Made by a program: the position numbers and the translations under genes | Shown: positions 2,677-28,953 of the stretch, in pieces | How the letters are laid out: the number at the start of each line of letters is the position of its first letter | Position numbering within the stretch: position 1 is the first letter of the stretch | The notes under the pieces: model-generated | The model's database searches: none | Told to the model about the DNA's origin: nothing | What the model saw: only the letters and a program-made list of their open reading frames with translations | Source of the DNA: Leucobacter denitrificans | GTDB lineage: Bacteria > Actinomycetota > Actinomycetes > Actinomycetales > Microbacteriaceae | NCBI RefSeq assembly: GCF_014396385.1 | Contig: NZ_CP060716.1 | Span: 620,001-684,000 of the forward strand | DNA length: 64,000 bases | Direction: 5' to 3'

Positions 2677-2695
2677 CCCTAAAGTTTTAGTTGAA
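2677..2695 (-). promoter_or_regulatory. Putative FtsR/MerR-type operator before ftsZ
   Basis: On the ftsZ coding strand this reads TTCAACTaaAACTTTAgGG. The same 19-mer with three mismatches (TTCAACTtgAACTTTAaGG) occurs at 28935-28953 before a MerR gene, in the same orientation. A plausible -10 (TAATAC) lies just upstream and the ftsZ ATG 18 nt downstream. FtsR, the Rv1828-type MerR protein of corynebacteria, is known to act at the ftsZ promoter, and a homologue is at 28982-29668. That the box is FtsR's operator is inference. Confidence 0.5.
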
Positions 2696-2817
2696 CTTCA
2701 AAGTTAGTATTAGCGTATACGTTTCGAAATAACGCTAGGGCTGGATGCCCGCCAGACGGGTTCGACACGCCGCCCGGGTCGATCACAAACCCAAACTTGG
2801 AACACAACCAGTGCTCC

Positions 2818-3846
2818 CTACTTGAAAATAGGCGCCGAAGTCGATGAAACATCTATGTGACTCACCGCGCGCCCCTCAAGTGCTTCAAGCATGGTTTGCA
2901 GCAAGAGCGCCTTGCGCTGAGTCTCATCCGCGCTCCCCCAAAACACCTCGATACCGCTCGCAAGCACGAACGTCACGTCTTGATTCGACGTTGCCTTGGC
3001 GGATACGAGTTGACTACGAAGTTCGGCGGGCATGTCTCGGACAATTTTGGACGCCGCGTGGAACGCTGGCGACGAGGTTGTACGCAAGCTCCCCTCACCG
3101 ATGGGCACACCTTCCGGTTTTTCGGTTGATTCTGCGACCAATACCCCGGCAGCGTCATACTGCCGAAACACGCCATCTTGCTCAAGCGAGATTGCGGGAA
3201 CACGTTCTTCGATGCGTACGAGAAGTGTGTGCGGAGGAATCCGTTCAACCCCAAAACGCTGGATGAGCGGGAACCCTTCGAGCGACCGAAGCACTTCGTT
3301 CTCATCGACAAGTGCCAAGGGAACCCCCTCGAAGCGCTGCAATGCTGCGGTTACTTCCTCGACATTCACGGCTTGCGCGCCCTCGACTTGCACGTCGCGC
3401 ACCGACATCAGCGGTGTAAATGCTCCCACGATCACGAAGACCAGGAGGAGAAGTATCGCCCCCACTGAGATGAGCAGGCGTCGCCTCGCGTGACGGATCG
3501 CCTGGGTAAAACGCCTGGTCTCTCGCCGTAGCCGCTTCTTCTGCTGTCGCTCGGCCGCTCGAACTCGCCGTTCTGCAGCCTGAATCGGATCCGCCGGCTT
3601 ACTGCCAAACGACAACAGCCCACGTGTTTTGGGAGCCTGCGCTTCCTCAGTCGCGGTTTCTCGCACCATCTCGGTGGACGGCTCTGCACTGCGGTCATGC
3701 CCCGGCTCCACCGCAGACTCCGAGCTCACCGCTAACTCTGGATCGACCGGCAGCGCTGTGGCTTTCGGCACTTCCGGTGTCTCTGGCAGATCCGGTGTGT
3801 TCGTCGTCGAGAACGGTCGTCGCTCAAACCCTCCTGGCCGTCTCAC
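2818..3846 (-). CDS. ftsQ: Cell division protein FtsQ/DivIB
   Basis: FtsQ links the Z-ring to the FtsB/FtsL-FtsW-FtsI synthase. The 342-residue protein has a long Pro/Glu-rich then basic cytoplasmic region (1-123), one membrane helix (about 124-144), a POTRA domain starting at [14 protein letters not shown] (about 148-218, with [20 protein letters not shown] end) and the FtsQ beta domain. The cytoplasmic tail is longer than in proteobacteria, as is usual in actinobacteria. The ATG at 3846 overlaps the murC stop by 4 nt. No ddl lies between murC and ftsQ. Confidence 0.93.
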
Positions 3847-5258
3847 GAGTCTCCCGGGTCTTCGCCAAGCGCGCTCACGAGTTGCGGCACGATCTTGTAC
3901 ACCGACCCTGCACCCACAACGAGCACCAGGTCACCGGGTTCGGCGAGCTCGCGAACGCGCTTGGTGGCGCGCTCCCAGTCGTCGATGTACTCGCCGCGTG
4001 CTCGGTCAGCGAACGCATCGGTCACAATCGCACCGGTGGTCGAAGGATCGGGTGCCTCGCGAACACGGTCGATTTCAAGCACAATCGTGTGATCCGCGCC
4101 ACTCTCAAACGCCTCGGCAAATTCCTTGAAAAAGGTTCGCGTGCGGCTGTACAGGTGTGGCTGATGTACGACGATGAGCTTACCCTCACCTGCCACTGAT
4201 CGAGCAGACTCGAGGAGCGCGCGCACCTCAGTGGGATGGTGTGCATAGTCGTCGTAAACGCGAACACCGCCGGGGTCACCGTGGAACTCGAATCTGCGCT
4301 GCGTTCCCTCGAATTCGGCGATTGCCCGAAGTGATGTCGCGGGGTCGAGCCCGAGACCCGTGAGCACCGCGAGTGCTCCCGCCGCATTCACTGCGTTGTA
4401 CGCCCCAAATACGCGCAGGGTCTCACGATAGACCTCACCAGCGAGCTCTACCTCGAGCGTCGCGGGCCCAGTCGTGTCGACAGAGACGATGCGAACGTCA
4501 GCGTCAGCTGCGTACCCGAACGTTCGAACACGCGGCGTCCCTGATTCCTCCTTGAGTGCAGCGAGAACTTCTTGCGCCCCCGCGTCATCGGCAGAAATGA
4601 CTAGGAGTTCGCGCGCGTTTCTCGCAAAGTCGACAAACGCCTGCATGAAGTGCTCGCGCGACCCGTAAAAATCGAGATGCTCCGGATCCACATTCGTGAC
4701 GAGGGCGACGGAGGTGTCGTAGATAAGGAATGACTTGTCACTCTCATCAGCCTCGATGACAAACAGGTCGTCCGCACCGTGTGCAGAGGCAACGCCGAGC
4801 GACGCAATGACACTGCCGTTCGCAAACGATGGATCGAGCCCAAGACCGAGCAAGCCTGTCACGATCATGCCAGTCGATGTGGTCTTCCCGTGCGCACCAG
4901 CTACCGCTACGAGGCTCTTTCCACGCGCGAGCCAAGCAAGTGCTTGGGAGCGGTGAAGCACCGGGATTCCACGTTCGACTGCGGAGCGGTACTCGGGATT
5001 ATCGGGCGAGAGTGCGCCCGTAATCACGAGCGTGTCTACGTCGCCAACATGCGTGGCATCGTGCCCGATCCACACTCGCACACCCAGCGCCTCGAGCGCG
5101 TCGGTGCTGTAGTTCGCTGCGCGATCAGAACCCGTCACCTGCACCCCGTTAGCGTGCATCATGTGCGCGATCGCGCTCATGCCCGCGCCGCCAATACCGA
5201 CGAAATGCACCCGTCCGAGGTCGTTCGGAATCTCCATCTCGAGATCGGGGTAAATCAT
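3843..5258 (-). CDS. murC: UDP-N-acetylmuramate--L-alanine ligase MurC
   Basis: MurC adds L-Ala to UDP-MurNAc with ATP in the cytoplasm, the first peptide step of peptidoglycan precursor synthesis. The N-terminal UDP-binding loop is [17 protein letters not shown], the ATP-binding P-loop is [13 protein letters not shown], and [11 protein letters not shown] marks the C-terminal domain. The start is placed at the ATG of [11 protein letters not shown] (5258) because GAGGAG lies 6 nt upstream and the extra N-terminal residues encoded to 5327 look non-native. It is the next cell-wall gene after murG, separated from it by an MFS gene. Confidence 0.96.
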
Positions 5259-5289
5259 ACGGCGCTCCTCATTGCTGTGCCCGTCAAGA

Positions 5290-6534
5290 CTACCGCGCGG
5301 GCGATGAAGTGGGCCGGTTCCCCGCACTACGCCCCTGGCGCGTCGCGGTGCGCTGTGCGTCGAGTTCGCTGGGAATCAGCGGAAGGGCGATGGCTGGCGT
5401 CAGCGCAACAAGTGCCAGAGCTGCGGGAATACCAACGAATCCGATGAGCCCGCCAACGAGCGAGGGCACGACCGCTGATGCAAGGAACTGCCCAGTGTTT
5501 TGTGTTCCGAGGGCGCGGCCAGCCCACTGCGGGCCCGCGATCTCCGCAACGGCCGTGAACGCGAGGCCATTGTCAGCGACGCTCACGCAACTCGCCACGA
5601 CAAAGATGATCGCTGCGGGAATTGCCCACTCTGCCCATCCAAACGCAGCAGCGACGAGCAGCACGACGACGCCCGCAATAGCGACCTGGCGCAGTGGCCG
5701 CAGCCTCGAGGCAACCTTGTCGCTCCATATGCCGGCGACAATCCTGCCGCCAGCACCGAGCAACTGCGCAGTGGCGACGAGTGCCCCAGCCGCGAGCGCG
5801 CTCCAGCCAAAATCAACGGTGAACCAAACGAGCCCGAATGTAGAGAGCACGAATTGTGGCACAACGAGCAGCACCGACACCGCGTGAATTCGAGCCAGGG
5901 TCCAGGACTCGCGGTATGGATTGCTGCCGAGCGCGGCAACCGTGCGCGGGGCCAATTCGGGATCCACCACAGCGGCGACGCAGCATACGAGCGCAATGAG
6001 CGTCAGCGCGCCACCAAACGCGAGGGCGCCCAAGATTCCATAGTGGATCGCGAGCGTTGGAACAGCAATAGCGGCAATGGCCATGCCGATCGGCTGACAG
6101 GTTTGACGTATTCCCATCGCAAGGCCGCGGCGCTCAGCTGGGAACCACCCCGCGATAAGACGCCCGCTCGCGTTATTGATGCACGCTGACATTGCCCCAC
6201 TCACTACCAGCGCAACGCCGAGCATCACGAATCCGTGCGCAAGCATCGACCCTGCGACGGCGAGCACGGTAAGCGCAAGGCCGATGATGAGCACGTTCCG
6301 CTCGCCGTAGCGATCGGCCGCCGCGCCCCATGCGATGAGCGACAAAACGAGCCCGAGGTGCGGTGCACCAGCGAGCAAGCCCGCACTTGCGAGGTTCATG
6401 CCCTCGTACTGGTGCAGATAGGGAATGAGAAAAGCGGGGGTTGCCACTACGACGGTCGTCGCGGCCTGACCGAGCACCATGACGGCGAGCATGAGCCAGG
6501 GGCGTGGGGTGATGCGAAGTGTGAGGCGCGACAC
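5290..6534 (-). CDS. MFS transporter embedded in the dcw cluster
   Basis: This 414-residue integral membrane protein has about 12 hydrophobic helices and MFS signatures: [13 protein letters not shown] between helices 2 and 3 and a similar [14 protein letters not shown] loop in the second half. The start is the GTG at 6534 ([15 protein letters not shown]); an upstream in-frame extension to 6720 would lie inside murG and is not membrane-like. It begins 1 nt after the murG stop and ends 31 nt before murC, so it appears to be in the same transcript. The substrate cannot be read from the sequence. An MFS gene here is not part of the canonical cluster. Confidence 0.88.
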
Positions 6535-6535
6535 C

Positions 6536-7615
6536 TTACTGCGCCGCCGCGCGTGCTTCGAGCACCATGTCAAACAACCGCGCTGTGCCGTCGAGCGACC
6601 CCGCCCCGCGCGCACGGGTCGACATGTCGCCGAGGCGTACGGGGTCATGCAAGAGCGGAAGCAACGTGCCTCGAACCCATGCGGACGTGAGCTCGGCGTC
6701 GTCAACAAGCAACGCCCCACCAGCTTGCACTACGTCCCGGGCATTCGCCCGCTGCTCGCCATTGCCATGACCCAGCGGAACAAATACTGCGGGAACTCCG
6801 AGCCCCGCGAGCTCACTCACGGTCGTCGAGCCAGCCCTCGAAACGGCGAGGTCGCACGCCGCAAACGCGAGATCCATGCGGTCGCAGTACTCAATCACGT
6901 GATAGCCAGGCACCCCCGGATCCTCGATCTCGGTGAGTCCGCCCCACACGTGCAGCACCTGCGCGCCGGAGTCGATGATAGCCCGCGCAGATCCCGAAAT
7001 TCCGCGATTGATTGCGCGCGCGCCGAGCGATCCACCGGTCACGAGCAGCGTGGGTCGTTCTGGGTCGAGTCCAAAGTGCTCACGAGCACTCTCCCGCAGC
7101 CCCGCGAGGTCGAGCGACTCAATCTCGGGGCGCAGCGGCATCCCGGTTGCTCGCGCGCCTCGAATCGGTGTGCTCGCGAACGTCACAGCGACGTAGGGGG
7201 TGGATCGCGCTCCGAGCTTATTCGCCATCCCGGGTTTCGCGTTTGCCTCGTGGATCACAAACGGCACCCGCTCGCGAGCTGCCGCCTGGTACGCGGGCGC
7301 TGAAGCGTATCCGCCAAACCCCACAACAACATCGACGTCGCGTTCCCTGATGAGCGCTCGAACGGCGCGAATTGCCCGCTGATACTTGAACGGAAACTTC
7401 AGCGCATACAGTCCTGGCTTCCTCGGAAACGGGAGACGCTCAATCGTTTGCAACTCATACCCGCGTTCGGGTACGAGTCGCGCCTCGAGCCCCTCTGCTG
7501 TGCCCAGCACAACGATCTCCGCGTCAGCTTCGCGGCGCCTGATGAAGTCGGCAAGTGCAAGCAGCGGATTCACGTGACCGGCGGTGCCACCGCCGGCGAG
7601 CAGGTACGTTGTCAT
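6536..7615 (-). CDS. murG: UDP-GlcNAc:lipid I N-acetylglucosaminyltransferase MurG
   Basis: MurG converts lipid I to lipid II on the inner face of the membrane. The 359-residue GT-B protein has the N-terminal GGGTAGHVNPLLALA loop, the membrane-facing LYALKFPFKYQRA region, VGFGGYASAPAYQAA, and the C-terminal donor-binding stretch VTGGSLGARAIN with SRAGSTTVSELAGLG. Length is normal. It lies 5 nt downstream of ftsW. Confidence 0.96.
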   Translation of the reverse strand: MTTYLLAGGGTAGHVNPLLALADFIRRREADAEIVVLGTAEGLEARLVPERGYELQTIERLPFPRKPGLYALKFPFKYQRAIRAVRALIRERDVDVVVGFGGYASAPAYQAAARERVPFVIHEANAKPGMANKLGARSTPYVAVTFASTPIRGARATGMPLRPEIESLDLAGLRESAREHFGLDPERPTLLVTGGSLGARAINRGISGSARAIIDSGAQVLHVWGGLTEIEDPGVPGYHVIEYCDRMDLAFAACDLAVSRAGSTTVSELAGLGVPAVFVPLGHGNGEQRANARDVVQAGGALLVDDAELTSAWVRGTLLPLLHDPVRLGDMSTRARGAGSLDGTARLFDMVLEARAAAQ

Positions 7616-7620
7616 GACCT

Positions 7621-8847
7621 CTATCGTCCCACGTGACCCTGGTGTGCCAGTTCATGTTGATAGTCACCAGCATCGCGGGCGACCGAGATCACAACTCCCA
7701 TAGTGATCAGACACGAAATCAATGCGGTGCCACCGGCGCTGATGAGTGGGAGCGGCACCCCGAGCACCGGGAACAGGCCGATCACCACACCAATGTTGAG
7801 GAATGCTTGGCCCACGATCCACACAAGTGCGCCACCGACAACGGCTCGACCAAAGCGATCGCGTGCGCGCGAAATCACGCGCAGCATGACAACCGCGAGC
7901 ACAATGAAGAGCACCACGACGAGCATCGCACCGATAAACCCGAGTTCCTCGCCGATGATCGCAAAAATATAGTCGTTGTCTGCTGCAGGCAGCCAGTTCC
8001 ACTTCGCCTTGGATCCACCGAGGCCGACGCCGAAGAGACCTCCGCTCGCCAGCGCCCATAGGCCGTGCTGGGGCTGCCAGCCGAGACCGCTGTAATCGTC
8101 GTTGCCGCTGGCGTGGCCGAAGAGACGCTGCATACGGTTCTCGCTCGTCACCACGAAAAATGCAATCGCTAGCAGCCCGCCGACGACGACGAGCGAGAGT
8201 GACTTCCAGCTGACGCCCCCGAAGAACATTGCGCCAATCACGAGCGCCGACATGACCATCGTCGTGCCAAGGTCGCGCCCGAGCAGCACGAGTCCGAGCG
8301 CGAGAAGCGCACCCGGCACGATCACTGGAATGAGTTCATGTGACATCTTGCCGAGCAACGGTTCCTTCTTGAGAAGCACCGTGCCGATCCACACGATCAG
8401 TGCGAGCTTCAGCGCCTCAGACGGCTGTGCGCCGAATGAACCGATTTGAATCCAGTTTCGGTTTCCGCCAACCTCAAAGCCGAGTGGAGTGAACACGAGC
8501 ATTTGCAGCAGAAGACCTGCGGCGAAGAAGGTCCACGCCCATCGCTTCCAAAATTCAAGTGTTCGAGTTGCCGCGAAAATCATGAGCGGAAGCCCGACCA
8601 CCGCGAAAATCATCTGACGCCAAAACACACCGAGGAAGCCCTGATCCTGCGTGTACGAGGTGATCGACGACGCCGAGAGCACCATAATGAGTCCGATGCC
8701 GGTCAGGAGCAGCGTGATGCCCCAGAGCAGTGCGACGGTCTTATCGCTTCCTGATTTGAGGCTTTCACCGAGGCTAATCCGGGCACTCGCAACCATGCCG
8801 GGCTGATTCGCACTCCCCGCATTCCCGGTGTTGCCTCGTCTCGCCAC
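7621..8847 (-). CDS. ftsW: Lipid II polymerase FtsW (SEDS family)
   Basis: FtsW is the septal SEDS glycosyltransferase that works with the class B PBP FtsI. The 408-residue protein has about 10 hydrophobic helices after a 40-residue cytoplasmic head. Family marks are GNRNWIQIGSFGAQPSE, LLGRDLGTTMVM, the extracellular DNDYIFAIIGEELGFIG with its catalytic Asp region, and the C-terminal VLGVPLPLISAGGTA. It sits between murD and murG with 3-5 nt gaps. Confidence 0.95.
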   Translation of the reverse strand: MARRGNTGNAGSANQPGMVASARISLGESLKSGSDKTVALLWGITLLLTGIGLIMVLSASSITSYTQDQGFLGVFWRQMIFAVVGLPLMIFAATRTLEFWKRWAWTFFAAGLLLQMLVFTPLGFEVGGNRNWIQIGSFGAQPSEALKLALIVWIGTVLLKKEPLLGKMSHELIPVIVPGALLALGLVLLGRDLGTTMVMSALVIGAMFFGGVSWKSLSLVVVGGLLAIAFFVVTSENRMQRLFGHASGNDDYSGLGWQPQHGLWALASGGLFGVGLGGSKAKWNWLPAADNDYIFAIIGEELGFIGAMLVVVLFIVLAVVMLRVISRARDRFGRAVVGGALVWIVGQAFLNIGVVIGLFPVLGVPLPLISAGGTALISCLITMGVVISVARDAGDYQHELAHQGHVGR

Positions 8848-8850
8848 CCG

Positions 8851-10332
8851 CTACTCCTCGCTCTCGCGAAGTTCGCGATACGCCACTTGAAACGCGTCGC
8901 CACGGTCAGAGTAGTTCTCAAACTGATCCATCGAAGCCGTCGCCGGAGACAGCAGTACGGTGTCGCCCTCGACTGCGATCGTCGAAGCGGCCCTCACTGC
9001 CTCGCGCATTACTTCAATGCCTCGCTCTGCGAGCACCTCGATCACCGGCACTTCGGGCGCGTGCTTGGCGAGAATCGCCAGCACCTCGCTTCGATCCGCA
9101 CCGATGACCACTGCACCGCGCAGCCTCGACGCGTGGCCCGCCACGAGATCTGAGATATCCACGCCCTTAAGCAGCCCGCCAAGCACCCACACCACACTGC
9201 GGTGAGCCTGGAGCGACGCATTCGCAGCGTGCACGTTGGTGGCCTTTGAATCGTCGATCCACCACACACCGCGCCACTCGCCGAGTTGCTGGGCCCGGTG
9301 CGCGTCGGGAACAAAGTCCAAGACCGCCCGCGCGATGTCTGCGGGAGCTACCCCGCACGCCCGCGCAAGGGCGCTCGCAGCGAGAATATTCTGTACCATG
9401 TGGGGCGCGGCAAGGCCACGCTCCGCGAGTTCTTCTACTGTTGCGAGTTCAAGTGCTGAGTTGCGTCGATCATCGTGAAAACCACGGTCGACGAGAATGC
9501 CCTCAACGACACCGAGTCCGCTCATAGGCGGGGTATCGAGCCCGAAGCTCACCGCTCGCGCGCCCTCTACGACGTCGGCTTCCTCGACCATGCGCAGCGT
9601 CTCTGAGTCAGCACGGTTATAGACACACGCGACTTTTGTCTGCTCGTAAACCTTGGCTTTTGCGGCCCAGTACCCGCTCTCGCCTCCGTGCCAGTCGAGA
9701 TGGTCGTCGGCAAAGTTTAGGCACACGCTCGAGTGCGGTGACATCGAGTACACACGCTCGAGTTGAAAGCTCGAAAGCTCGAGCACAATCGCGTCATATC
9801 CCAGTGGATCGCGGAGCACATCGAGCAGCGGAGTGCCGATGTTGCCTGCCGGAACCGCACGTAGCCCGCCGGCAAGCAGCATGTGCGCTGTGAGCTGCGT
9901 CGTAGTCGTCTTGCCGTTTGTTCCGGTGACGCAAATCCAATCTGCAATGCGGTCGGTTTTATCGCGCAGTCGCCACCCGAGCTCAATATCGCCCCATACT
10001 GCCACATCCTGCGACTGGGCCCACACGACCACCGGGTGCTTTGCCGGGTAACCGGGTGACACAACGATGAGCTCGGGCGCAAATGCCTGAAGCTCCGCAA
10101 TCTGCGCTTCATCAGATTCCGCAAGTGCGCGCTCCGAACCGATCACGTCGAGCAAGCGCTCGCGATCCTCGTCGGGTTTGCCGTACACAACGCGCACCTG
10201 GGCGCCGAGCTCGACCAGCGTGTCAGCAACGGAAAAGCCAGTGGCTCCGAGGCCGAGCACAGCTACTCGAAGCCCCGACCAGTCGTGATGCCAACTGGTA
10301 AGTGCCGCCAGCCGTTGCTCCACTCCACTCAC
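8851..10332 (-). CDS. murD: UDP-N-acetylmuramoyl-L-alanine--D-glutamate ligase MurD
   Basis: MurD adds D-Glu to UDP-MurNAc-L-Ala using ATP. It has an N-terminal Rossmann loop VLGLGATGFSVADTL, the P-loop VTGTNGKTTTTQLTA, the LNFADDHLDWH metal/ATP site and WWIDDSKATN in the C-terminal domain. I take the GTG at 10332, which overlaps the mraY stop as GTGA, in preference to the ATG at 10347 inside mraY. At 493 residues it is slightly long, in the actinobacterial range. Confidence 0.95.
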   Translation of the reverse strand: MSGVEQRLAALTSWHHDWSGLRVAVLGLGATGFSVADTLVELGAQVRVVYGKPDEDRERLLDVIGSERALAESDEAQIAELQAFAPELIVVSPGYPAKHPVVVWAQSQDVAVWGDIELGWRLRDKTDRIADWICVTGTNGKTTTTQLTAHMLLAGGLRAVPAGNIGTPLLDVLRDPLGYDAIVLELSSFQLERVYSMSPHSSVCLNFADDHLDWHGGESGYWAAKAKVYEQTKVACVYNRADSETLRMVEEADVVEGARAVSFGLDTPPMSGLGVVEGILVDRGFHDDRRNSALELATVEELAERGLAAPHMVQNILAASALARACGVAPADIARAVLDFVPDAHRAQQLGEWRGVWWIDDSKATNVHAANASLQAHRSVVWVLGGLLKGVDISDLVAGHASRLRGAVVIGADRSEVLAILAKHAPEVPVIEVLAERGIEVMREAVRAASTIAVEGDTVLLSPATASMDQFENYSDRGDAFQVAYRELRESEE

Positions 10333-18515: not shown

Positions 18516-18517
18516 CG

Positions 18518-18958: not shown

Positions 18959-18964
18959 AGTCGG

Positions 18965-20065: not shown

Positions 20066-20113
20066 GAGCCGAAGAGCGCGAGACTCTGAGTGAGGTTACG
20101 AGCGTCAGCGCTA

Positions 20114-20530
20114 CTAAAACGCGAGGCTCTGCGTTGCCCTGCGCACGGCGCTCTTGCGACCGTCGCGAAGCACAGCGATGGGTCGTTCGCCAAGCTCATC
20201 ATTCTCCTGAAGCAGCCAATGCACCGCTTCCTCCTCCGAGAAGCCGCTGTCAAGGAGCGCAAGGAGCGTGCCTCGGAGCGATGGAATCACGTCTCCGTTT
20301 TGCACAAACTCCGCTGGGACTTGGACAATGCCGTCGATCTTTACCGACGCAAGATAGTGTTCTTCGAGCAGGCGATGCACTTTGCCCACTGAACAGCCAA
20401 ACAGCTCAACAAGTTCGGGGACGGTCAGGTACTCGGTTGCGGGGTTCTCTTCCACACCATCAACAATGCCAGGTCGCGCAATTCGTCGCAATGCAGAGCA
20501 GGACTCGATCAGGTCACTTTCGAGCTTCAC
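20114..20530 (-). CDS. Rv2175c-like winged-helix DNA-binding protein
   Basis: The 138-residue protein has an N-terminal helix-turn-helix (TEYLTVPELVELFGCSVGKV, about 32-50), a wing (YLASVKIDGIVQVPAEFV) and a C-terminal domain with HWLLQENDELGERPIAVLRDGR. This is the Rv2175c family of actinobacteria. In M. tuberculosis the protein is a substrate of PknL; here the gene is divergent from a PknL-type kinase with 40-46 nt between starts. The GTG at 20530 is weakly supported; a GTG at 20455 is an alternative that keeps the whole fold. Confidence 0.85.
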   Translation of the reverse strand: MKLESDLIESCSALRRIARPGIVDGVEENPATEYLTVPELVELFGCSVGKVHRLLEEHYLASVKIDGIVQVPAEFVQNGDVIPSLRGTLLALLDSGFSEEEAVHWLLQENDELGERPIAVLRDGRKSAVRRATQSLAF

Positions 20531-20576
20531 GGCGCGGATCAGCTAATTTGCACACGCCATTCCGTAGGCTTTGCGC

Positions 20577-22583
20577 GTGACCTCTGCACCCATCGACCCG
20601 TTGCTCGGGCGCACGCTGAACGAGCGGTACGTGATCCGCTCTCGTATCGCGCGCGGCGGCATGGCGATGGTGTATCTCGCGACCGATCTGCGTCTCGAGC
20701 GCAAGGTTGCCGTGAAGGTGATGCATGATCACCTCGCCGAAGATGAGAACTTCACTCGGCGGTTTGACCGCGAAGCAAGAAGCGCTGCTCGTCTCGCGCA
20801 CGCAAATCTCGTGAATGTTTTTGACCAGGGTCACGATCTCGGGCGCACCTACCTCGTGATGGAGTACCTGCCAAATATCACCCTTCGCCAGCTACTCAAG
20901 AAGCAAAAGCGTCTCACGCTTGACCAGGCGCTCGAAATAAGTGAGGCGGTTCTCGGTGGGCTCGCTGCAGCGCATCACGCCGGTATTGTGCACCGAGACC
21001 TCAAGCCAGAAAATGTTCTGCTCGTTGATGATGGCCGCATTAAGATCGGTGACTTTGGTCTCGCCCGCGCGGTAAGCGCAAATACCACGACAGGCCAGGC
21101 GCTGCTCGGCACCATCGCGTACCTCTCCCCCGAACTCGTCACGCGCGGCATCGCAGACGAGCGAAGTGATCTCTACGCGTTCGGCATCATGCTCTATGAG
21201 ATGCTGACGGGAGTGCAGCCGTTCACCGGCGAACAACCGATGCAGATCGCGTATCAGCACGCTCACTCAGATGTCCCGCCACCCTCCGAGCACAGTCAGG
21301 TCTCCACTCCTGCTGTCGACGAGTTCGTCATGTGGCTCACGAGGCGTGACGCTGACCTGCGACCCATCGACGCAAGTGAAGCACTCGATCGTCTCGAACC
21401 AATCCGCGATGATCCATATGCCGCGATTGCTCCGCTATTTTTGCGCGAAGGCGAAGAGCCCGAGGAACCGCTTGCCGCCACGACTGTGCTGGGAAACGAA
21501 CTCGATGACGTCGCAACGACGCACATTACCCCGTCCACCGCGGTGCTCGATCCACTACAGAGCGCGAGTATCGCGAATGCGCTCCCGTCCGAAAATGATC
21601 GTGCGTCCGGTGGCAGCACTACCGCAACGTCGCGTTCGACATCGCCGGTAGAACGCGCTCAGAATAGTGGCACCAGGCGCTCAAAGCGGGGTCGGTGGAT
21701 CGCGGGAGCGCTCATCCTCCTCTTGCTTATTGCCGGAGGGCTCGGATACTGGTTCGGTCAGGGTCCCGGATCGAAGGTAACAATTCCTGAGATTTCCGGT
21801 CTCACGATGGAGACCGCGACCGCGGAACTCGAGCAACTCGATCTGTTTGTCGAAACGACCGTGTGTTCGAGCCTCACGGTGGAAGCCGGTCTTGCCGCCG
21901 AGATTACCCCGGCCCCGGGTACTCGTGTGGATCGCAACACGACCACCACTGTCTGTGAATCGTCCGGCCCAGAGATGCTCGACGTTCCCACGATTGTTGG
22001 ACTCTCGCTCGAGGACGCGGTGCAGCTCATCACTGACTCCAGGTTCCAGTTCGGTGAAGTTGTCGATACGCGATTCTCTGAAGCAGAGGCTGACGCTGTA
22101 CTCGCGGCGCTCGATGAATCTGACGCTCCACTCGGTGAGACGTTCCCAGAGCAGGGAATAATAAACCTGGTTGTTTCTGCGGGCTCGATACCTAGTGTGT
22201 TCGGAATGAGTGAGACTGAGGCAACGAACACTCTCGCAGCACGGGAACTCGTCGTTGACGAGTCACTGAATACCCAGGTTCACAATGATGAGGTCCCGAT
22301 CGGTGCGGCCATTGCAGTACTTCCCTCAACCGATCCTGTACGGCCGGGCGATGCTGTAGGTTTGCAGCTCTCACTCGGCCCAGAACTGTTCGAGATTCCA
22401 GACGTATCGGGCATGGGGCTTCAGGAAGCGATGGACACGCTAAGTGCCGCAGGCTTTAACCCGACAACGCTAGTTCCTGATCGCCTCAGAGAATTTGCTG
22501 AGGCAAGCGGTACGAGACCAGGCGCCGGCGAGCGAGTGCCTAAGGGCTCAGACGTGCGCGTTACAGCTCAAGTTTCGCTATAG
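20577..22583 (+). CDS. pknL: Ser/Thr protein kinase with four PASTA domains (PknL type)
   Basis: This membrane kinase has an intracellular kinase domain (about 10-275) with glycine loop IARGGMAMVYLA, VAVKVM lysine, HRDLKPENVLL catalytic loop, DFGLA and SPE. It is an RD kinase. A linker of about 110 residues follows, then one membrane helix (about 373-392, WIAGALILLLLIAGGLGYWF) and four PASTA repeats starting near VTIPEISGL, DVPTIVGL, IPSVFGM and EIPDVSGM. PASTA domains sense muropeptides or lipid II. I use the GTG at 20577, which has AGG 9 nt upstream, rather than the TTG at 20571. Confidence 0.93.
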   Translation: MTSAPIDPLLGRTLNERYVIRSRIARGGMAMVYLATDLRLERKVAVKVMHDHLAEDENFTRRFDREARSAARLAHANLVNVFDQGHDLGRTYLVMEYLPNITLRQLLKKQKRLTLDQALEISEAVLGGLAAAHHAGIVHRDLKPENVLLVDDGRIKIGDFGLARAVSANTTTGQALLGTIAYLSPELVTRGIADERSDLYAFGIMLYEMLTGVQPFTGEQPMQIAYQHAHSDVPPPSEHSQVSTPAVDEFVMWLTRRDADLRPIDASEALDRLEPIRDDPYAAIAPLFLREGEEPEEPLAATTVLGNELDDVATTHITPSTAVLDPLQSASIANALPSENDRASGGSTTATSRSTSPVERAQNSGTRRSKRGRWIAGALILLLLIAGGLGYWFGQGPGSKVTIPEISGLTMETATAELEQLDLFVETTVCSSLTVEAGLAAEITPAPGTRVDRNTTTTVCESSGPEMLDVPTIVGLSLEDAVQLITDSRFQFGEVVDTRFSEAEADAVLAALDESDAPLGETFPEQGIINLVVSAGSIPSVFGMSETEATNTLAARELVVDESLNTQVHNDEVPIGAAIAVLPSTDPVRPGDAVGLQLSLGPELFEIPDVSGMGLQEAMDTLSAAGFNPTTLVPDRLREFAEASGTRPGAGERVPKGSDVRVTAQVSL

Positions 22584-22649
22584 AACTCGGAGAGCAAATC
22601 GGCCGGAGCTCCACGGCACGTTATCGCCCGTTGCGCTCCGACCGACCCT

Positions 22650-24017
22650 CTACGCCCGCTTGAGTTCTTCGGCGACCTGGAACGCAAGCTCGAGTGACTG
22701 CCTATGATTCAGGCGTGGATCGACCACCGACTCATAGCGCGTTGCAAGTGCCTCCTCGTCGATATTCTCTGCCCCGCCGAGCACCTCGGTCACATCGTCG
22801 CCAGTGACCTCGACGTGAATACCACCGGGGATCGTGCCGACCTCGCGGTGCGCCTCGAAGAATCCGAGAAGTTCGTTCATGACATCGTCGAATCGGCGCG
22901 TCTTATAACCCGTCGCCGTTGTGATGCCGTTGCCGTGCATCGGGTCGGTGATCCACAGTGGCTGCGCGCCCGAGTCGCGCACACCGGCGAGGAGGCCAGG
23001 CAGCACGTCGCGGATCTTGCCAGCGCCCATGCGCGTAATGAACGTCAGACGACCGGGCTCTCGCTCGGGGTCAATCTTGTCGATAAGGCGCAGAGCGTCA
23101 TCAACGGTTGCTGTCGGACCAAGCTTCACGCCGATTGGATTGCGCACCTTCGAAAGGTAGTCAACGTGTGCGCCGTCTATGTCTCGTGTGCGCTCCCCGA
23201 TCCACAGCATGTGGCCCGAGGTGTCGTACAGGTTGCCCGTGCGGGAATCGATTCGAGTGAGCGGCCGCTCGTAATCGAGCAAGAGTGCTTCGTGGCTCAC
23301 GTAGAACTCGGTTTGCGTGAGTGCGGTGTGGTCTACCCCACACGCATCCATAAATCGAAGTGCGCGATCTATTTCGGCTGCCAATGCCTCGTACCGACGG
23401 TTCGCGGGATTAGAAACAAAGCCCTGATTCCACGCGTGGACCTGCCTGAGATCAGCAAACCCACCCTGGGTAAACGCCCGAATGAGGTTCAGCGTCGATG
23501 CCGACACATGGTACCCCTGCACAAGCCTGCTTGGGTCTGGAGTTCGTGATTGCTCAGTGAACTCGTAACCGTTCACGAGGTCACCTCGGTACGCGGGAAG
23601 TGTGACGCCCTCGCGAGTTTCATTATCACTCGAACGTGGCTTTGCGAACTGACCAGCCATGCGACCGACCTTGATCACTGGCATTGAAGCACCGTAGGTA
23701 AGCACAACTGCCATCTGAAGCAGTGTCTTTACGCGATCTCGGATTCTATCTGCGGTCGCAGCCTCGAATGTTTCGGCGCAATCGCCACCCTGCAGCAGAA
23801 AGGCTTCGCCTCGTGCCGCAGCAGCAAGCCGCTCACGAAGCTGGTCAGCCTCACCGGCAAAGACCAGTGGCGGCTGTGTCGATAGCTCTTGCTTTGCAGC
23901 TTCAACTGCTCGAGCATCAGGCCAACTCGGCTGCTGCTTTGCCTCGAGCAAACGATACGTGTCGAGCTGCTCGAAGATCTGCTGCGCCGATAGGGTCTGC
24001 TTGCTCACTGCATTCAT
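22650..24017 (-). CDS. aroG: Class II 3-deoxy-7-phosphoheptulonate (DAHP) synthase
   Basis: The first enzyme of the shikimate pathway joins phosphoenolpyruvate and erythrose 4-phosphate. The protein of about 455 residues matches the plant/actinobacterial class II type: LLQGGDCAETF, KVGRMAGQFAKPRS, YVSHEALLLDYE, WIGERTRD, KVRNPIGVKLGP, ITRMGAGKIRDVLPGL and WITDPMHGNG. The start is placed at the ATG of MNAVSKQTL (24017) because AGGA lies 5 nt before it; an ATG two codons earlier is possible. Rv2178c occupies the same place in M. tuberculosis. Confidence 0.95.
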   Translation of the reverse strand: MNAVSKQTLSAQQIFEQLDTYRLLEAKQQPSWPDARAVEAAKQELSTQPPLVFAGEADQLRERLAAAARGEAFLLQGGDCAETFEAATADRIRDRVKTLLQMAVVLTYGASMPVIKVGRMAGQFAKPRSSDNETREGVTLPAYRGDLVNGYEFTEQSRTPDPSRLVQGYHVSASTLNLIRAFTQGGFADLRQVHAWNQGFVSNPANRRYEALAAEIDRALRFMDACGVDHTALTQTEFYVSHEALLLDYERPLTRIDSRTGNLYDTSGHMLWIGERTRDIDGAHVDYLSKVRNPIGVKLGPTATVDDALRLIDKIDPEREPGRLTFITRMGAGKIRDVLPGLLAGVRDSGAQPLWITDPMHGNGITTATGYKTRRFDDVMNELLGFFEAHREVGTIPGGIHVEVTGDDVTEVLGGAENIDEEALATRYESVVDPRLNHRQSLELAFQVAEELKRA

Positions 24018-24161
24018 GGCCATCCTGTATAAATATCGCAGTACCGCCCCAAATGACGGCACCCCTTAAGCGTACCCAACTCCTCTGACATCCACGCACA
24101 CTCGGCGGACGCCCGAAGCGAACGAAGACGCGCTCTGCGGAAACTTGGTTGAGGCGAACAA

Positions 24162-24832
24162 CTATCGCTGTCGCACGCTCGACGCGTAGACGTCGACGTA
24201 CTCCTGATCGCTCAGTTTCTGAATCTCGAGCATGATCTCATCGGTAACGCTTCGAAGTACGAACCTGTCCGCACTGAGGCCTTCAAACCGTGTGAAGTCG
24301 AGTGGCTTACCGATCACGGTGCCGATTCGACGGATTCGCGGAAACTTCACGCCGATCGGCATTGCCTTTTCAGTGTCGATCATCACGATGGGAACGACCG
24401 TCGCGCCGGACTCGAGCACGAGTCGCGCGACGCCGGTGCGGCCCCGGTAGAGCCTCGCATCTGGGCTGCGAGTCCCTTCGGGGTAGATACCGAGTACGTC
24501 ACCGCGGTCAAGAACGCTCAGCCCCGTATTCAGCGAAGCTTCTGACGCCTTGCCCCCGAACGGTCGATCGGAAGCTGACCAACAGCAAGCATGAAGGTCT
24601 TTACCAACCATCCCTTTAGGCCTTTACCGGTGAAATAGTCGCTCTTCGCGAGAAAGTACACCCGCCGATCCACCATAAGTGGCATAAAAAACGAATCGAT
24701 AACAGATAGGTGGTTCCCAACAATAATGACTGGTCCACTCTCAGGGATATTCTCGGCGCCTTCGACCCAGGGTCGGTACACCGTCTTCAGAAACGGCCCG
24801 ATGATCAGGTGTTTAAAGAACCAGTAGAGCAC
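24162..24832 (-). pseudogene. 1-acyl-sn-glycerol-3-phosphate acyltransferase (PlsC family), frameshifted
   Basis: Two overlapping frames together encode one PlsC-type protein of about 223 residues. The first (24832 down) has the HX4D motif VGNHLSVIDSFF and ends after VGQLPIDRSG; the second (to 24162) resumes GGKASEASLNTG and carries YPEGTRSPD and VVPIVMI. The break is at the C5/G5 run 24553-24557: one more G would give TCG-GGG-GGC and restore the frame. A one-base loss in a homopolymer suggests an assembly error or recent decay. Rv2182c is the mycobacterial positional counterpart. If intact it would make phosphatidate from lysophosphatidate at the membrane. Confidence 0.85.
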
Positions 24833-24981
24833 GGCCTGATTTTTCCCTTCGTCGACCCCCAGAATAGCGGAGACCTACAACCGAAACCGCATGGGGATAG
24901 GCTTTGGACATAAAATCGGTGGCAACGCTACCCGTTGAATGTACTGGCACACACAGTCCCGACACGAACAAAGGAGTTCCC

Positions 24982-26811
24982 GTGAATTTGTCCGAGACCC
25001 CAATCATTGTCCCCGAGGCTCCGGAGGACAACATTACGGATCTCCTTGAGGAGCGAGTGCAGGCCACTCCAGATCGCGCGCTCTTCGCAGTTCCCGAGAA
25101 TGGCGGCTGGAGAGATATCAGTGCCGCAGAGTTCCGCCGCCAGGTCATCGCGCTCGCTAAGGGGTTTGTTGCTGCAGGCGTGCAGCCAGGCGACCACATC
25201 GCGTTCATGTGCAAGACGAGCTACGAATGGACGCTCGTAGACTTTGCACTCTTCTATGCCGGCGCAATCATGGTGCCTGTCTACGAGACATCGTCTGCGA
25301 TGCAGATCCACTGGATCCTCGAAGACTCTGAAGCACGAGGACTCATGGTTGAGACGAGCGCACAGTTTGACAGGTTCTCTGAAATCAAAGACCAGGCCAC
25401 CGCGGTCGACCTTATCTGGCGTCTCGACGAAGATGCCATCAGCGCATTGAGTGCTTCGGGCGCCGAGGTCGAAGATGCAGAGATTGAGCGCCGCAGAAAT
25501 CTCGCGCAGGGTTCCGACATTGCAACGCTCATTTACACCTCGGGTTCGACCGGTCGCCCGAAGGGCTGCGTACTCACGCACTCGAATTTTGTGGATCTCT
25601 CGCGTAACTCAGCAGCTGCCCTCACTGAGGTCGTTAACGCACCGGGCAGCTCAACGCTGCTCTTTGTGACGCTCGCACACGTGTTCGCACGGTTCATTTC
25701 GGTGCTCAGTGTGTGCGGAGGTGTTCGAGTAGGTCACCAAGCAGACACGAGCCAATTGCTCCCCGCACTCGGAACATTCCACCCGTCGTTCCTCCTTGCC
25801 GTTCCGCGCGTGTTTGAGAAGGTCTACAACTCTGCAGAGCAGAACACTGAGGCCGAAGGCAAGGGGAAGATCTTCCGAGCTGCAGCGAAGGTTGCCGTGG
25901 AGCACTCTGAAGCACTCGACGCCGGCAAGGTTCCCTTCATGCTTGGTATGAAGTTCAAGATCTTTGATCTTCTCGTGTACTCGAAGCTGCGCGACAAGCT
26001 CGGTGGACGCGTGCAGTTTGCGGTCTCAGGATCCGCACCACTCAGCCGCTACCTCGGCCACTTCTACCGCAGCCTTGGAATAAAGATTCTCGAAGGTTAT
26101 GGCCTGACTGAGACCACCGCCCCCGTGTCAGTGAACCTTCCGAGCAAGTTCAAGATTGGCACCGTTGGGCCGGCGCTCCCAGGCCACACAGTACGCATCG
26201 CGGAAGACGGCGAAATTGAAGTGAAGGGCATCGACGTATTCAAGGAGTACTGGAAGAACCCCGAGGCCACCGCTGCGGTATTCACCGACGATGGGTTCTT
26301 CAAGACAGGTGACATTGGCGCGCTCGATGAGGATGGTTACCTCACGATCACGGGCCGCAAGAAGGAGATCATCGTGACCGCAGGCGGCAAGAACGTCGCG
26401 CCTGCCGCACTTGAAGATCCAATTCGCGCAAACACAATCATCGGCCAGGTCGTCGTCGTTGGCGATCAGAAGCCGTTCATCGCCGCGTTGATCACGCTCG
26501 ATCCCGAGATGCTTCCCGCATGGTTGAAAAACCAGGGCGAGGACCCAACCATGACGCTCGAAGAGGCAGTGAAGAACCCCAAGGTCATCGCCGAGGTTCA
26601 ACGCGCAGTCGACGAGGGAAATAAGTTTGTCTCTCGCGCTGAGTCGATTCGCAAATTCGAGATCCTCCCGACTGAGTTCATCGAAGCAAATGGCCACCTC
26701 ACACCTAAGATGAGCATCAAGCGCGACAACATTCTGCGTGACTTCGCGAGCGAGATCTCAAGTATCTACGGGGAGAATCCGCAGACGGAGCACGTGCAGA
26801 CGCACCCCTAA
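24982..26811 (+). CDS. Long-chain fatty acid--CoA ligase (FadD15-like)
   Basis: The AMP-forming ligase activates fatty acids to acyl-CoA. The 609-residue protein carries the P-loop motif YTSGSTGRPKGCVLTHSN, LAHVFARF, the A5 motif EGYGLTETTAPVSVN and the A8 region FFKTGDIGALDEDGYLTITGRKK, with a catalytic Lys in the C-terminal part. The start is the GTG at 24982 preceded by AAAGGAG at ideal spacing; the longer frame to 24904 lacks support. A strong terminator follows at 26835. The PlsC gene upstream is divergent. Confidence 0.94.
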   Translation: MNLSETPIIVPEAPEDNITDLLEERVQATPDRALFAVPENGGWRDISAAEFRRQVIALAKGFVAAGVQPGDHIAFMCKTSYEWTLVDFALFYAGAIMVPVYETSSAMQIHWILEDSEARGLMVETSAQFDRFSEIKDQATAVDLIWRLDEDAISALSASGAEVEDAEIERRRNLAQGSDIATLIYTSGSTGRPKGCVLTHSNFVDLSRNSAAALTEVVNAPGSSTLLFVTLAHVFARFISVLSVCGGVRVGHQADTSQLLPALGTFHPSFLLAVPRVFEKVYNSAEQNTEAEGKGKIFRAAAKVAVEHSEALDAGKVPFMLGMKFKIFDLLVYSKLRDKLGGRVQFAVSGSAPLSRYLGHFYRSLGIKILEGYGLTETTAPVSVNLPSKFKIGTVGPALPGHTVRIAEDGEIEVKGIDVFKEYWKNPEATAAVFTDDGFFKTGDIGALDEDGYLTITGRKKEIIVTAGGKNVAPAALEDPIRANTIIGQVVVVGDQKPFIAALITLDPEMLPAWLKNQGEDPTMTLEEAVKNPKVIAEVQRAVDEGNKFVSRAESIRKFEILPTEFIEANGHLTPKMSIKRDNILRDFASEISSIYGENPQTEHVQTHP

Positions 26812-26834
26812 TCAATACTCACTAACGTCAGGTT

Positions 26835-26875
26835 GTGGTGCCACTCGAAGACTTCCTCGGGTGGCACCACTTTTT
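26835..26875 (+). terminator. Rho-independent terminator after the acyl-CoA ligase gene
   Basis: A perfect 10-bp stem, GTGGTGCCAC (26835-26844) with GTGGCACCAC (26861-26870), is followed by TTTTT. It also lies just beyond the def stop codon on the other strand, so it may insulate the two convergent genes. Confidence 0.88.
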
Positions 26876-26885
26876 ATATCTCGGT

Positions 26886-27377
26886 TTAGAACCACCTTGA
26901 GGTGCGAATCTGCCTCATTGCTTCTCCGCGTGTCTCACGGTCGAGCCTCGAGATGTAGAGTTTGCCGTCGAGGTGGTCGCACTCATGTTGCAGAGCCTGC
27001 GCTTTGAGACCCTCCCCTATGATTGTCACTTCACTGCCATCGAGCAATATGCCGCGTACAGTCGCTCGAGGGTACCTCGTGACCGTAAACCACAGGTCCG
27101 GCACTGACAAACACCCCTCGCCCATTTCCTCAGGGTCCCCACTCACCTCAACCAACTCTGGATTCAACACGTACTCGATGACGCCGTCGATATTCAGGCT
27201 GAATGCGCGGTGGGTGTATCCAATCTGCGTCGCGGCGAGACCCGCTCGCCCGTCGAAATCGACGGTGTCGCACAGGTCCGTCACCATCGCGTGAATTCCG
27301 GCGTCAATTTCGGAAATTTCATCGCAAACGGTGCGAAGCACCGGATCCCCAAACAGTCGTATTTCGCGCACAGCCAT
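26886..27377 (-). CDS. def: Peptide deformylase
   Basis: Def removes the formyl group from nascent proteins. The 163-residue metalloprotein has motif 1 GLAATQIG (usually GLAAPQIG or GLAANQIG), motif 2 EGCLSVPD with the metal Cys, and motif 3 HECDHLDG with the two metal His and catalytic Glu. The ATG at 27377 lies 6 nt after a TAGCAT element, so the transcript may be leaderless. It is divergent from the ParA gene with 66 nt between starts. Confidence 0.96.
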
Positions 27378-27383
27378 GCGTTG

Positions 27384-27389
27384 ATGCTA
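27384..27389 (-). promoter_or_regulatory. -10 element of a leaderless def promoter
   Basis: On the minus strand TAGCAT is followed by 6 nt and then the def ATG. No ribosome site fits in so short a leader. Confidence 0.4.
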
Positions 27390-27431
27390 TCGGCTACATA
27401 ATCATCCAAGCCTCAATCAGGCTTCATCCAC

Positions 27432-27437
27432 TAAACT
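27432..27437 (+). promoter_or_regulatory. -10 element of a leaderless parA promoter
   Basis: TAAACT ends 6 nt before the GTG start at 27444. With the def -10 on the other strand, the 66-nt intergenic region would hold two back-to-back leaderless promoters. Confidence 0.45.
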
Positions 27438-27443
27438 CGAACC

Positions 27444-28241
27444 GTGCATGTATTGAGTGTGAGTTCCCTAAAAGGTGGCGTCGGCAAGACCACAGTAACG
27501 CTGGGGCTTGCGTCAGCGGCGTTTTCGCGCGGTCTTCGCACACTGGTCGTCGATCTTGATCCGCAGTCAGACGTCTCAACAGGCCTGGCCGTCGATCCTG
27601 AAGGCTATTCGAATATCGCAGACGTTCTTGAGAGCCCGAAAGAGAAAACGGTCCGTCAGGCGATCGCTCCGAGCGGGTGGAATGAGTTCCACGAAGGCGG
27701 CAAGATCGACCTCCTGGTGGGTAGCCCATCTGCAATCAACTTTGATGGCCCGCACCCGTCGGCGCGGGACATTTGGAAGTTGGAAGAGGCACTCGCAATT
27801 GTCGAGTCCGATTACGACCTCGTGCTAGTGGACTCTGCTCCGTCATTGAATGCGCTCACGCGCACAGCGTGGGCAGCGAGCGACCGCGTAATGATCGTGA
27901 CAGAGCCAAGCCTGTTCGCTGTAGCAGCGACCGACCGCGCGCTGCGCGCGATCGAAGAGATCCGCCGAGGTGTGAGCCCTCGCTTGCAGCCGCTCGGCAT
28001 TCTCGTGAACCGCACCCAGGCGCAGTCTGTGGAGCACCAGTTCCGTGTTCGCGAGTTGCGCGAGATGTTCGGCCCGCTCGTACTTACGCCTCAGCTGCCT
28101 GAGCGACCAGCGCTGCAACAGGCCCAGGGTGCCGCAAAGCCAGTGCATCTCTGGCCCGGAGAACCAGCACAAGAGATGGCCGCGAACTTCGATATCGTGC
28201 TCGACCGCGTACTGCGATCGATGAAGAAGGCTAAAGACTAA
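27444..28241 (+). CDS. ParA/Soj-family ATPase without a partner ParB
   Basis: The 265-residue P-loop ATPase has a deviant Walker A (SLKGGVGKTTVTLG, about 8-21), Walker A' VVDLDPQSDVSTGL and Walker B LVLVDSAPS, the marks of the ParA partition family. No parB follows; the next gene is a convergent MerR regulator. Similar orphan ParA genes sit beside the FHA-MerR cluster in other actinobacteria. It could position a cargo other than the chromosome, but nothing in the sequence shows which. GTG start, probably leaderless. Confidence 0.9.
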   Translation: MHVLSVSSLKGGVGKTTVTLGLASAAFSRGLRTLVVDLDPQSDVSTGLAVDPEGYSNIADVLESPKEKTVRQAIAPSGWNEFHEGGKIDLLVGSPSAINFDGPHPSARDIWKLEEALAIVESDYDLVLVDSAPSLNALTRTAWAASDRVMIVTEPSLFAVAATDRALRAIEEIRRGVSPRLQPLGILVNRTQAQSVEHQFRVRELREMFGPLVLTPQLPERPALQQAQGAAKPVHLWPGEPAQEMAANFDIVLDRVLRSMKKAKD

Positions 28242-28254
28242 CGAGAACTCGTTA

Positions 28255-28842
28255 CTAAGACGTCTTGCGCTTAGAGCGACGAGCGGCAAGTTCATCGGTA
28301 GGAGCGTGAGCCGCGGGCTTCTCGCGGTGGTCGTCGAGGTCAACGAGCGACGTTTCGACTTCGCGCAGCACCTTACCGACAGCAATGCCGAACACGCCCT
28401 GCCCCCTGCTCACAAGGTCAATAACCTCGTCGTTGGAGGTGCAGAGGTACACACTCATGCCGTCACTCATGAGCGTCGTCTGCGAGAGATCGTGCACTCC
28501 GGCTGCGTGCAATTGCCCGACTGCCGTACGAATCTGCTGCAGCGAAATGCCAGTGTCGAGCAGTCGCTTCACGAGCTTAAGAACGAGGATGTCGCGGAAC
28601 CCATAGAGTCGCTGTGAGCCTGAACCGCTGGCTTCTCGCACGGTGGGCTCTACGAGGCCGGTGCGCGCCCAGTAGTCGAGCTGTCGATAGCTGATGCCGG
28701 CCGCGCGGGCAGCCACTGCGCCCTTGAAACCACCGTCGACATTTGGACGAGGAAGCCCGTCGTCGAAGAGCAGGTCGGCAGAGAGCGGATACGCATCAAC
28801 AACAGCATCAGTGCCATCAATTGGCGGTTCCGTATGCTCCAT
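28255..28842 (-). CDS. MerR-family transcriptional regulator (Rv1830-like)
   Basis: The 195-residue protein has an N-terminal MerR winged helix (GISYRQLDYWARTGLVEPTV, about 48-68), the RLYGFRDILVLKLVKRLLD coiled helix, LQQIRTAVGQL and a C-terminal part that contains no Cys cluster, so no metal sensing is indicated. Its promoter carries a 19-bp box that is nearly identical to one before ftsZ. In mycobacteria a DUF151 nuclease gene separates the two MerR genes, but here only 139 nt of non-coding sequence lies between them. Confidence 0.88.
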   Translation of the reverse strand: MEHTEPPIDGTDAVVDAYPLSADLLFDDGLPRPNVDGGFKGAVAARAAGISYRQLDYWARTGLVEPTVREASGSGSQRLYGFRDILVLKLVKRLLDTGISLQQIRTAVGQLHAAGVHDLSQTTLMSDGMSVYLCTSNDEVIDLVSRGQGVFGIAVGKVLREVETSLVDLDDHREKPAAHAPTDELAARRSKRKTS

Positions 28843-28934
28843 TGTCGACCCTCTCTTGTGACTTGAACTCCATCAACGCTATCTGTGTGGGGTACCCCGT
28901 GCAACGACCGTGAGCACCGATTTCATAACTTCGA

Positions 28935-28953
28935 CCTTAAAGTTCAAGTTGAA
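28935..28953 (-). promoter_or_regulatory. Putative FtsR/MerR-type operator before the MerR gene
   Basis: On the gene strand it reads TTCAACTtgAACTTTAaGG, matching the ftsZ box at 16 of 19 positions in the same orientation. It lies 92 nt before the start at 28842 and 29 nt beyond the 3' end of the upstream MerR gene. A partial copy (GGAGTTCAAGT on the minus strand) occurs near 28866. Binding by either MerR protein is inference. Confidence 0.5.

Follow-up and report, generated by a model that had tools for sequence, protein, structure and literature searches.

Introduction

In Corynebacterium glutamicum, the regulator FtsR (Cg1631) recognises an inverted repeat of 25 bp ahead of ftsZ, AACCCTAAAGTAAAGGTTGAGGGTA, which is centred at −73, was identified by chromatin affinity purification sequencing (ChAP-Seq), and is supported by an electrophoretic mobility shift assay (EMSA) (PMC6683498). 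The potential FtsR targets named there are ftsZ, cg2477, cg0852, cop1-cg3181-cg3180, phoC, and cg0838, and cg1633 is named as a co-transcribed neighbour (PMC6683498). Kraxner et al. 2019 state that ftsZ alone leaves the phenotype of the C. glutamicum ftsR deletion unexplained and that another FtsR-dependent gene must exist (PMC6683498). In mycobacteria, McdR, whose reported operator is the inverted repeat AATnACAnnnnTGTnATT, represses whiB2, while WhiB2, whose site is cGACACGc, activates mcdR (PMC9040748). McdR has also been linked to drug resilience in Mycobacterium tuberculosis (PMC10336103).

Here we analysed a 64-kb stretch (the window) of the Leucobacter denitrificans genome, in which an earlier note on the DNA had pointed out a 19-bp box shared by the promoters of ftsZ and of a MerR-family gene. 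The box is very likely an FtsR operator, a site that in Leucobacter stands before ftsZ, the MerR-type gene mcdR, whiB2, and dnaB, and FtsR probably acts on ftsZ, on the two partner genes of the McdR-WhiB2 loop, and on dnaB. The role of FtsR at ftsZ is already known (PMC6683498). A full-text literature search, with most subscription papers outside its coverage, returned no paper linking FtsR with McdR, Rv1830, WhiB2, or dnaB. These genes (mcdR/resR, whiB2, and dnaB) are three central and testable candidates for the further FtsR-dependent genes. If the assignment is true, FtsR would sit above the McdR-WhiB2 loop, and division would be tied to replication in actinobacteria.

Results and Discussion

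Two Boxes in the Register of the Published FtsR Operator

Both boxes lie on the minus strand, at 2677-2695 (TTCAACTAAAACTTTAGGG) and 28935-28953 (TTCAACTTGAACTTTAAGG). They share 16 of 19 bases and have the same orientation relative to the downstream gene (ftsZ, 1447-2658, minus strand; the MerR gene, 28255-28842, minus strand), as the earlier note had described. Its argument from the improbability of the match does not hold when taken alone: the window contains 494 same-strand 19-mer pairs with at least 16/19 identical bases, and for 44 genes picked by hand, the upstream regions of 150 bp yielded 7 pairs at that level (0-6, mean 2, in ten letter-shuffled sets). We also scanned the genome (one contig, 2.40 Mb) with the pattern proposed in the note, allowing up to three mismatches. 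Nine matches were found; the two boxes had no mismatch, the other seven had three mismatches, and the reversed control gave 12. At three mismatches, this pattern also touches the dnaB site described below (C1:1631081-1631099).

The significance of the boxes comes from the fit of an independent motif to both of them, not from their mutual match. From the published C. glutamicum operator we took a 23-bp core, ACCYTNAA-N7-TTNARGGT, with 14 scored positions; on known sites it scores 14 (C. glutamicum ftsZ), 11 (M. tuberculosis ftsZ), and 10 (cop1). The best place in the window is 28934-28956, at 14/14, and 2676-2698 reaches 12/14, as does one other place, 46402-46424, inside an open reading frame (ORF). 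When the window was shuffled 20 times, places at 12/14 or more averaged 0.05 per shuffle (maximum 1), and 13/14 was never reached. At both loci, the 19-bp box corresponds to positions 4-22 of the core. A 31-bp palindrome at ftsZ, which had put the boxes out of register, was dropped as the operator, as the published core gives both boxes one register. It is extremely improbable that the two boxes are alike by chance, with no common regulator: the pair counts above show that a 16/19 match between promoters is not rare, but both boxes fit an independently published operator, both are kept in relatives, and the strongest copies genome-wide precede four functionally linked genes.

The ftsR Locus

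The second box lies between two MerR-family genes, in the following arrangement.

28982..29668, minus strand: ftsR (NCBIfam equivalog model NF050798, 205.6 bits, cut-off 150)
28255..28842, minus strand: McdR/ResR-like MerR regulator gene (mcdR), in the Rv1830/cg1633 position (Pfam MerR_1)
29668..30123, minus strand: odhI/garA-like FHA-domain gene upstream of ftsR (FHA; NF041660, 160.6 bits, below the cut-off of 200)

The equivalog match shows that the earlier note was right to call the protein of 28982-29668 FtsR-like. NCBIfam returned three matches for the 28255-28842 protein (HspR, CueR, and NmlR), all below cut-off and with no McdR/ResR model among them. What marks the gene as mcdR is a MerR-type gene adjoining garA-ftsR together with the McdR operator at whiB2 (AATGACAAGGGTGTAATT in this genome). 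The garA-ftsR-MerR gene order agrees with that described for C. glutamicum (PMC6683498). The bifunctional nuclease gene that stands between ftsR and the second MerR gene in the C. glutamicum account (PMC6683498) does not separate the two genes here, where the gap (28843-28981) measures 139 bp. In one relative (G024, C1:1290037-1290683), ftsR gave two overlapping matches in different frames, which might reflect a frameshift, a sequencing error, or a real break. FtsR autoregulation at garA/ftsR was considered and rejected: the 900 bp before ftsR held no site of 12/14 or more in 24 loci and a single one at 11/14 (L019).

MerR relatives share an operator grammar, and residues 30-89 of FtsR can be aligned to CueR chains from the PDB. 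A different member of the MerR family that recognises this half-site might act at whiB2 or mcdR. We consider this improbable, since ftsR lies beside mcdR, FtsR is the characterised owner of the motif, and no further regulator of this motif is known to us.

The mcdR Promoter

The elements upstream of mcdR are listed below. At mcdR and whiB2, the transcription start was assumed to lie 7 bp past the −10 element.

28934..28956, minus strand: predicted FtsR operator, ACCTTCAA-CTTGAAC-TTTAAGGT (14/14), which includes the box at 28935-28953
28899..28904, minus strand: −35-like TTGCAC, from the sequence
28876..28881, minus strand: −10-like TAGCGT after a 17-bp spacer; with the start presumed from it, the operator centre (28945) would lie at about −76

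The promoter pattern TTGC...TAnnnT, at about the same spacing, was present in 24/24 mcdR loci of the genus, compared with a shuffle mean of 0.3. A predicted operator of at least 11/14 was found in 18/24 Leucobacter loci, in 12/27 loci from the other genera of this family, and in 8/29 genomes of other families. One Leucobacter locus (L033) has a broken ftsR frame, and its ftsR-mcdR gap was given a start by hand. Of 58 genomes with a match, the best 30 supplied the family loci; 27 were counted, after leaving out L118 and L120 (own genome or same genus) and dropping L142 (no upstream sequence). The conserved site supports the earlier proposal that FtsR controls the adjacent MerR gene. The term "paralogue" used for that gene is imprecise: the two genes are neighbours belonging to the MerR family, the downstream one being McdR/ResR-like, with a different operator reported in mycobacteria.

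Elsewhere in the family the site is shifted in some loci, for example into the leader behind the −10 element (L128, L133, L144, and L145, judged by eye); in L123 and L141 it stands before a GACACGCC box, its position relative to the promoter again being judged by eye. GACAC occurred within 330 bp of mcdR in 27/27 family loci (L119, L121-L141, and L143-L147; shuffle mean 7.5) and GACACGC in 26/27 (shuffle mean 1.3). In the genus, GACAC was present before mcdR in 16/24 loci, and it was not found in the mcdR promoter of this genome (28841-29000). In some genomes of other families, we saw by eye a palindrome ahead of a GACAC-type box and a TTGAC −35 element at mcdR.

Predicted Paired FtsR and McdR Operators at whiB2

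Only two perfect copies of the FtsR core exist in the genome, one before mcdR and one at C1:1948610-1948632, before a whiB2-like gene; no site with exactly one mismatch was found in this genome. The encoded protein belongs to the WhiB family (PF02467, 96.9 bits) and has no NCBIfam model. We tentatively assigned the WhiB2 type because the promoter carries the McdR repeat and each Leucobacter genome has just one match at E values up to 1e-20. A second, weak McdR match (L236) was dropped.

The whiB2 site scored at least 11/14 in 24/25 Leucobacter loci and in 24/30 family loci (22/28 without G143 and G298, two genomes chosen for carrying the double operator). One Leucobacter genome (G014) has lost both this site (L108) and the mcdR site. 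The McdR repeat was present before whiB2 at 11-12 of 12 positions in 25/25 Leucobacter and 30/30 family loci, and in 54 of these 55 loci it overlaps the −10 element of a TTGACN-N17/18-TGTNAT promoter. In 51/55 loci, the best FtsR site from a free search of 350 bp scored at least 10/14 and began 48-52 bp ahead of the McdR repeat, a near-constant spacing with L108, L171, L174, and L176 as the exceptions. The 51 sites compared column by column were those with an arm score of at least 10, sought 47-52 bp before the McdR repeat. Their arm columns carry 0.53-2.0 bits, with 14 of 16 above 1 bit, and the spacer columns 0.07-0.57 bit; conserved arms around a free spacer are the mark of a dimer site. 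GACAC or GTGTC was found at whiB2 in 25/25 Leucobacter and 26/30 family loci, counts that say little against shuffle means of 15 and 16.

Patterns with permuted arms, scored at 11/14, matched on average 0.75-1.7 loci per set (genus, family, and class; mcdR, whiB2, and ftsZ), with means of 1.3 for family whiB2, 0.75 for family mcdR, and 0.93 for class mcdR; these patterns include near-copies of the FtsR motif, and single permutations reach up to 25/30. Control regions held no FtsR site (0/24 in ftsR coding sequences; 0/55 in 340-bp regions lying farther upstream of whiB2).

Could the box instead be an operator of McdR, which would then regulate its own gene and act on ftsZ? One box does stand directly upstream of mcdR, and overexpressed McdR affects division genes in mycobacteria (PMC9040748). 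Yet the operator reported for McdR, AATnACAnnnnTGTnATT, is a different inverted repeat (PMC9040748). This repeat is kept before whiB2 in the genus, the family, and other families, which makes the specificity of McdR look unchanged, and its sole match in the window at up to two mismatches (4077-4094) coincides with neither box. We regard this explanation as highly improbable and retain FtsR as the likely owner of the box.

Compared with the mycobacterial McdR-WhiB2 loop (PMC9040748), the McdR repeat over the whiB2 promoter is kept, and so is a GACAC-type box before mcdR across the family loci; the L. denitrificans mcdR promoter differs in lacking GACAC. The predicted FtsR operators at both partners would be an added input, of which none is seen in the account given in PMC9040748.

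A strict double-operator pattern gave three matches in 296 genomes of the class, all in the same family. It is too strict for measuring absence, and the upstream regions were therefore read directly. Among named GTDB contigs, 106 stretches carried the FtsR and McdR double operator, as counted by sequence alone in a scan that possibly did not cover the L. denitrificans genome itself. Among the 80 of these 106 that were listed, 79 bear the name of Microbacteriaceae or of its genera; the listed genera we take to belong to that family. The remaining listed stretch (L301) lies on a contig in a metagenome-assembled genome labelled Comamonadaceae, perhaps mis-binned. As a separate observation, the McdR repeat was present at 10-12/12 before the whiB2-like gene in 29/29 genomes of other families (L178-L206), a count made without a shuffle control.

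The dnaB Site and the Genome-Wide Distribution

At up to two mismatches, the FtsR core matched 16 places in the genome, compared with eight for the reversed control. These were mcdR, whiB2, ftsZ, the rplI-dnaB gap (rplI named by eye, dnaB by Pfam), a terminator-like hairpin, ten places in ORFs, and C1:2272556. The hairpin (L073, 12/14) was rejected as an operator, as by eye it follows a tRNA-like gene and appears to be its terminator.

A scan at up to one mismatch covered five of the 24 relatives in the genus (G003, G006, G013, G016, and G020). Thirteen of the 14 sites obtained stand before whiB2, mcdR, dnaB, or ftsZ; by position relative to the gene places, they divide into whiB2 (5), dnaB (4), mcdR (3), ftsZ (1), and an ORF (1). 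The sole extra site (L385) lies inside an ORF resembling an ABC transporter. The reversed control gave two places in one of these genomes and none in the other four. As the genomes were chosen for target sites of at least 13/14, the new fact is that just one further site occurred in five genomes. With L. denitrificans included, nearly all strong sites in six genomes stand at the four promoters.

Upstream of dnaB, the best site lies at −281 to −302, scoring at least 10/14 in 16/22 Leucobacter loci and at least 11/14 in 13/22; a locus with a split dnaB (L372) was dropped. An alternative account has FtsR binding but only ftsZ, mcdR, and whiB2 mattering, with the dnaB site belonging to another factor or being a remnant in a DnaA-box region. 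In its favour, the site is weaker (10-13/14 where counted), stands about 283 bp before dnaB, and is not the best place in 6/22 Leucobacter loci, and the stretch it occupies carries DnaA-box-like sequences in 29/29 loci. Against it, the position is kept in 16/22 Leucobacter loci, and the dnaB site accounts for four of the 14 strongest sites of the five genomes. On balance this account appears unlikely, and we keep dnaB among the candidate targets of FtsR.

The DnaA-box-like sequences are an observation in their own right: TTATCCACA and its kin occurred within 420 bp upstream of dnaB in 29/29 loci (L343-L371), with 1-4 copies each and shuffle means of 0.00-0.08, and one TTATCCACA lies 123-143 bp before dnaB in 22/22 Leucobacter loci. 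In G009 (C1:588668-589863), dnaB gave two overlapping matches in different frames, attributable to a frameshift, a sequencing error, or a real break.

The ftsZ Promoter

1447..2658, minus strand: ftsZ, with ATG at 2658 (TIGR00065, 411 bits)
2674-2668, minus strand: ftsZ ribosome-binding site, adjoining the operator
2676..2698, minus strand: predicted FtsR operator, AAGTTCAA-CTAAAAC-TTTAGGGT (12/14), which includes the box at 2677-2695
2706..2711, minus strand: −10-like AATACT, from the sequence; with the start presumed from it, the operator would span about +1 to +23
2764..2768, plus strand: GACAC upstream of ftsZ (WhiA/WhiB-type box; GTGTC on the coding strand)

The ftsZ set comprised 22 Leucobacter loci (L040-L061) plus L062; L068 and L069 were dropped, the ftsZ N-terminus being missing. 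The operator scored at least 11/14 in 23/23 assessable Leucobacter loci and in 5/5 loci from other families of the order, with the best place in a shifted register in L045, L050, L053, and L056. The sequence ATACTAAC was present at the −10-like element in 22/22 loci (L040-L061). GTGTC was found within 160 bp upstream of ftsZ in 22/22 genus loci, compared with a shuffle mean of 4.1. GACAC is the site of WhiA in Streptomyces venezuelae (PMC3781837), and PMC6683498 cites binding of the ftsZ promoter in C. glutamicum by a WhiA-WhcD complex. A GACAC-type box stands before Leucobacter ftsZ as well, and this short box is the feature shared with WhiA/WhiB (WhcD) control.

At ftsZ, the Leucobacter operator differs from that of C. 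glutamicum in lying directly downstream of the −10-like element. It would overlap the presumed start, a position that suits repression or a second promoter, and either is possible there. The two systems share several features: the regulator is of the same NCBIfam family, the inverted repeat of 23-25 bp is the same, ftsZ is a target in both, and the operator centre lies upstream of the start at −73 for C. glutamicum ftsZ and, by our prediction, at about −76 for mcdR here. The Leucobacter candidate targets add mcdR, whiB2, and dnaB to ftsZ.

A Model for FtsR Control

In the proposed mechanism, an FtsR dimer would bind the 23-bp inverted repeat and set the transcription of ftsZ, mcdR, whiB2, and dnaB together, that is, of the division GTPase, the loop partners, and the replicative helicase. 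What we observed is that the sites exist and are conserved, that arms and spacer differ as described at whiB2, that the strongest sites are placed at the four promoters, and that the spacing to the McdR repeat at whiB2 is nearly constant; FtsR as the binder in Leucobacter, the start sites, and the sign at each promoter are inferred. The predicted operator centres, about −76 at mcdR and about −62 at whiB2 relative to the presumed starts, would suit an activator. An FtsR input to both mcdR and whiB2 would form an incoherent feed-forward loop. The "small division regulon" of the earlier note is upheld, and the placement of strong sites and their conservation extend it to whiB2 and dnaB.

Taken together, these features suggest a joint reading that we offer tentatively, at slightly less than even chances. 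FtsR of Microbacteriaceae would be a common input to division and replication, activating both whiB2 and its repressor mcdR in an incoherent feed-forward arrangement, with the opposite or a dual sign at ftsZ. In Leucobacter, dnaB, beside its DnaA boxes, would be coupled to this input. Control of mcdR would be older and class-wide, and that of whiB2 added in the family.

Several observations weigh against FtsR control of the four genes. The whiB2 site is absent in 29/29 genomes of other families, and a thirtieth genome of the class (L110) reaches 9/14. The mcdR site is lost in 6/24 Leucobacter loci (L023, L024, L027, L029, L030, and L032) and falls below 11/14 in 15/27 loci of other family genera. 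At ftsZ, the copy in this genome reaches only 12/14. At dnaB, only one of seven loci from other genera (L369, −279) has at least 11/14 at the same place. Ten of the 16 places at up to two mismatches lie inside ORFs, and the reversed control already gives eight. Selecting the 51 whiB2 sites by arm score favours the arms, though the two unscored arm columns still carry 1.62 and 1.86 bits, and the five relatives were selected in the knowledge that each had target sites of at least 13/14. Finally, the genes that PMC6683498 gives for the nine FtsR peaks of C. glutamicum do not include the homologue cg1633, whcD, or dnaB. The links of FtsR to mcdR, whiB2, and dnaB may thus be lineage-dependent or may have been missed in C. 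glutamicum. An assignment of peak 5 to the promoter of whcD (whiB2) was dropped, as the table in PMC6683498 places this peak at cg0852 (leftward) and cg0853 (rightward).

Elsewhere in the window, the region from about 41000 to 45860 contains few long ORFs.

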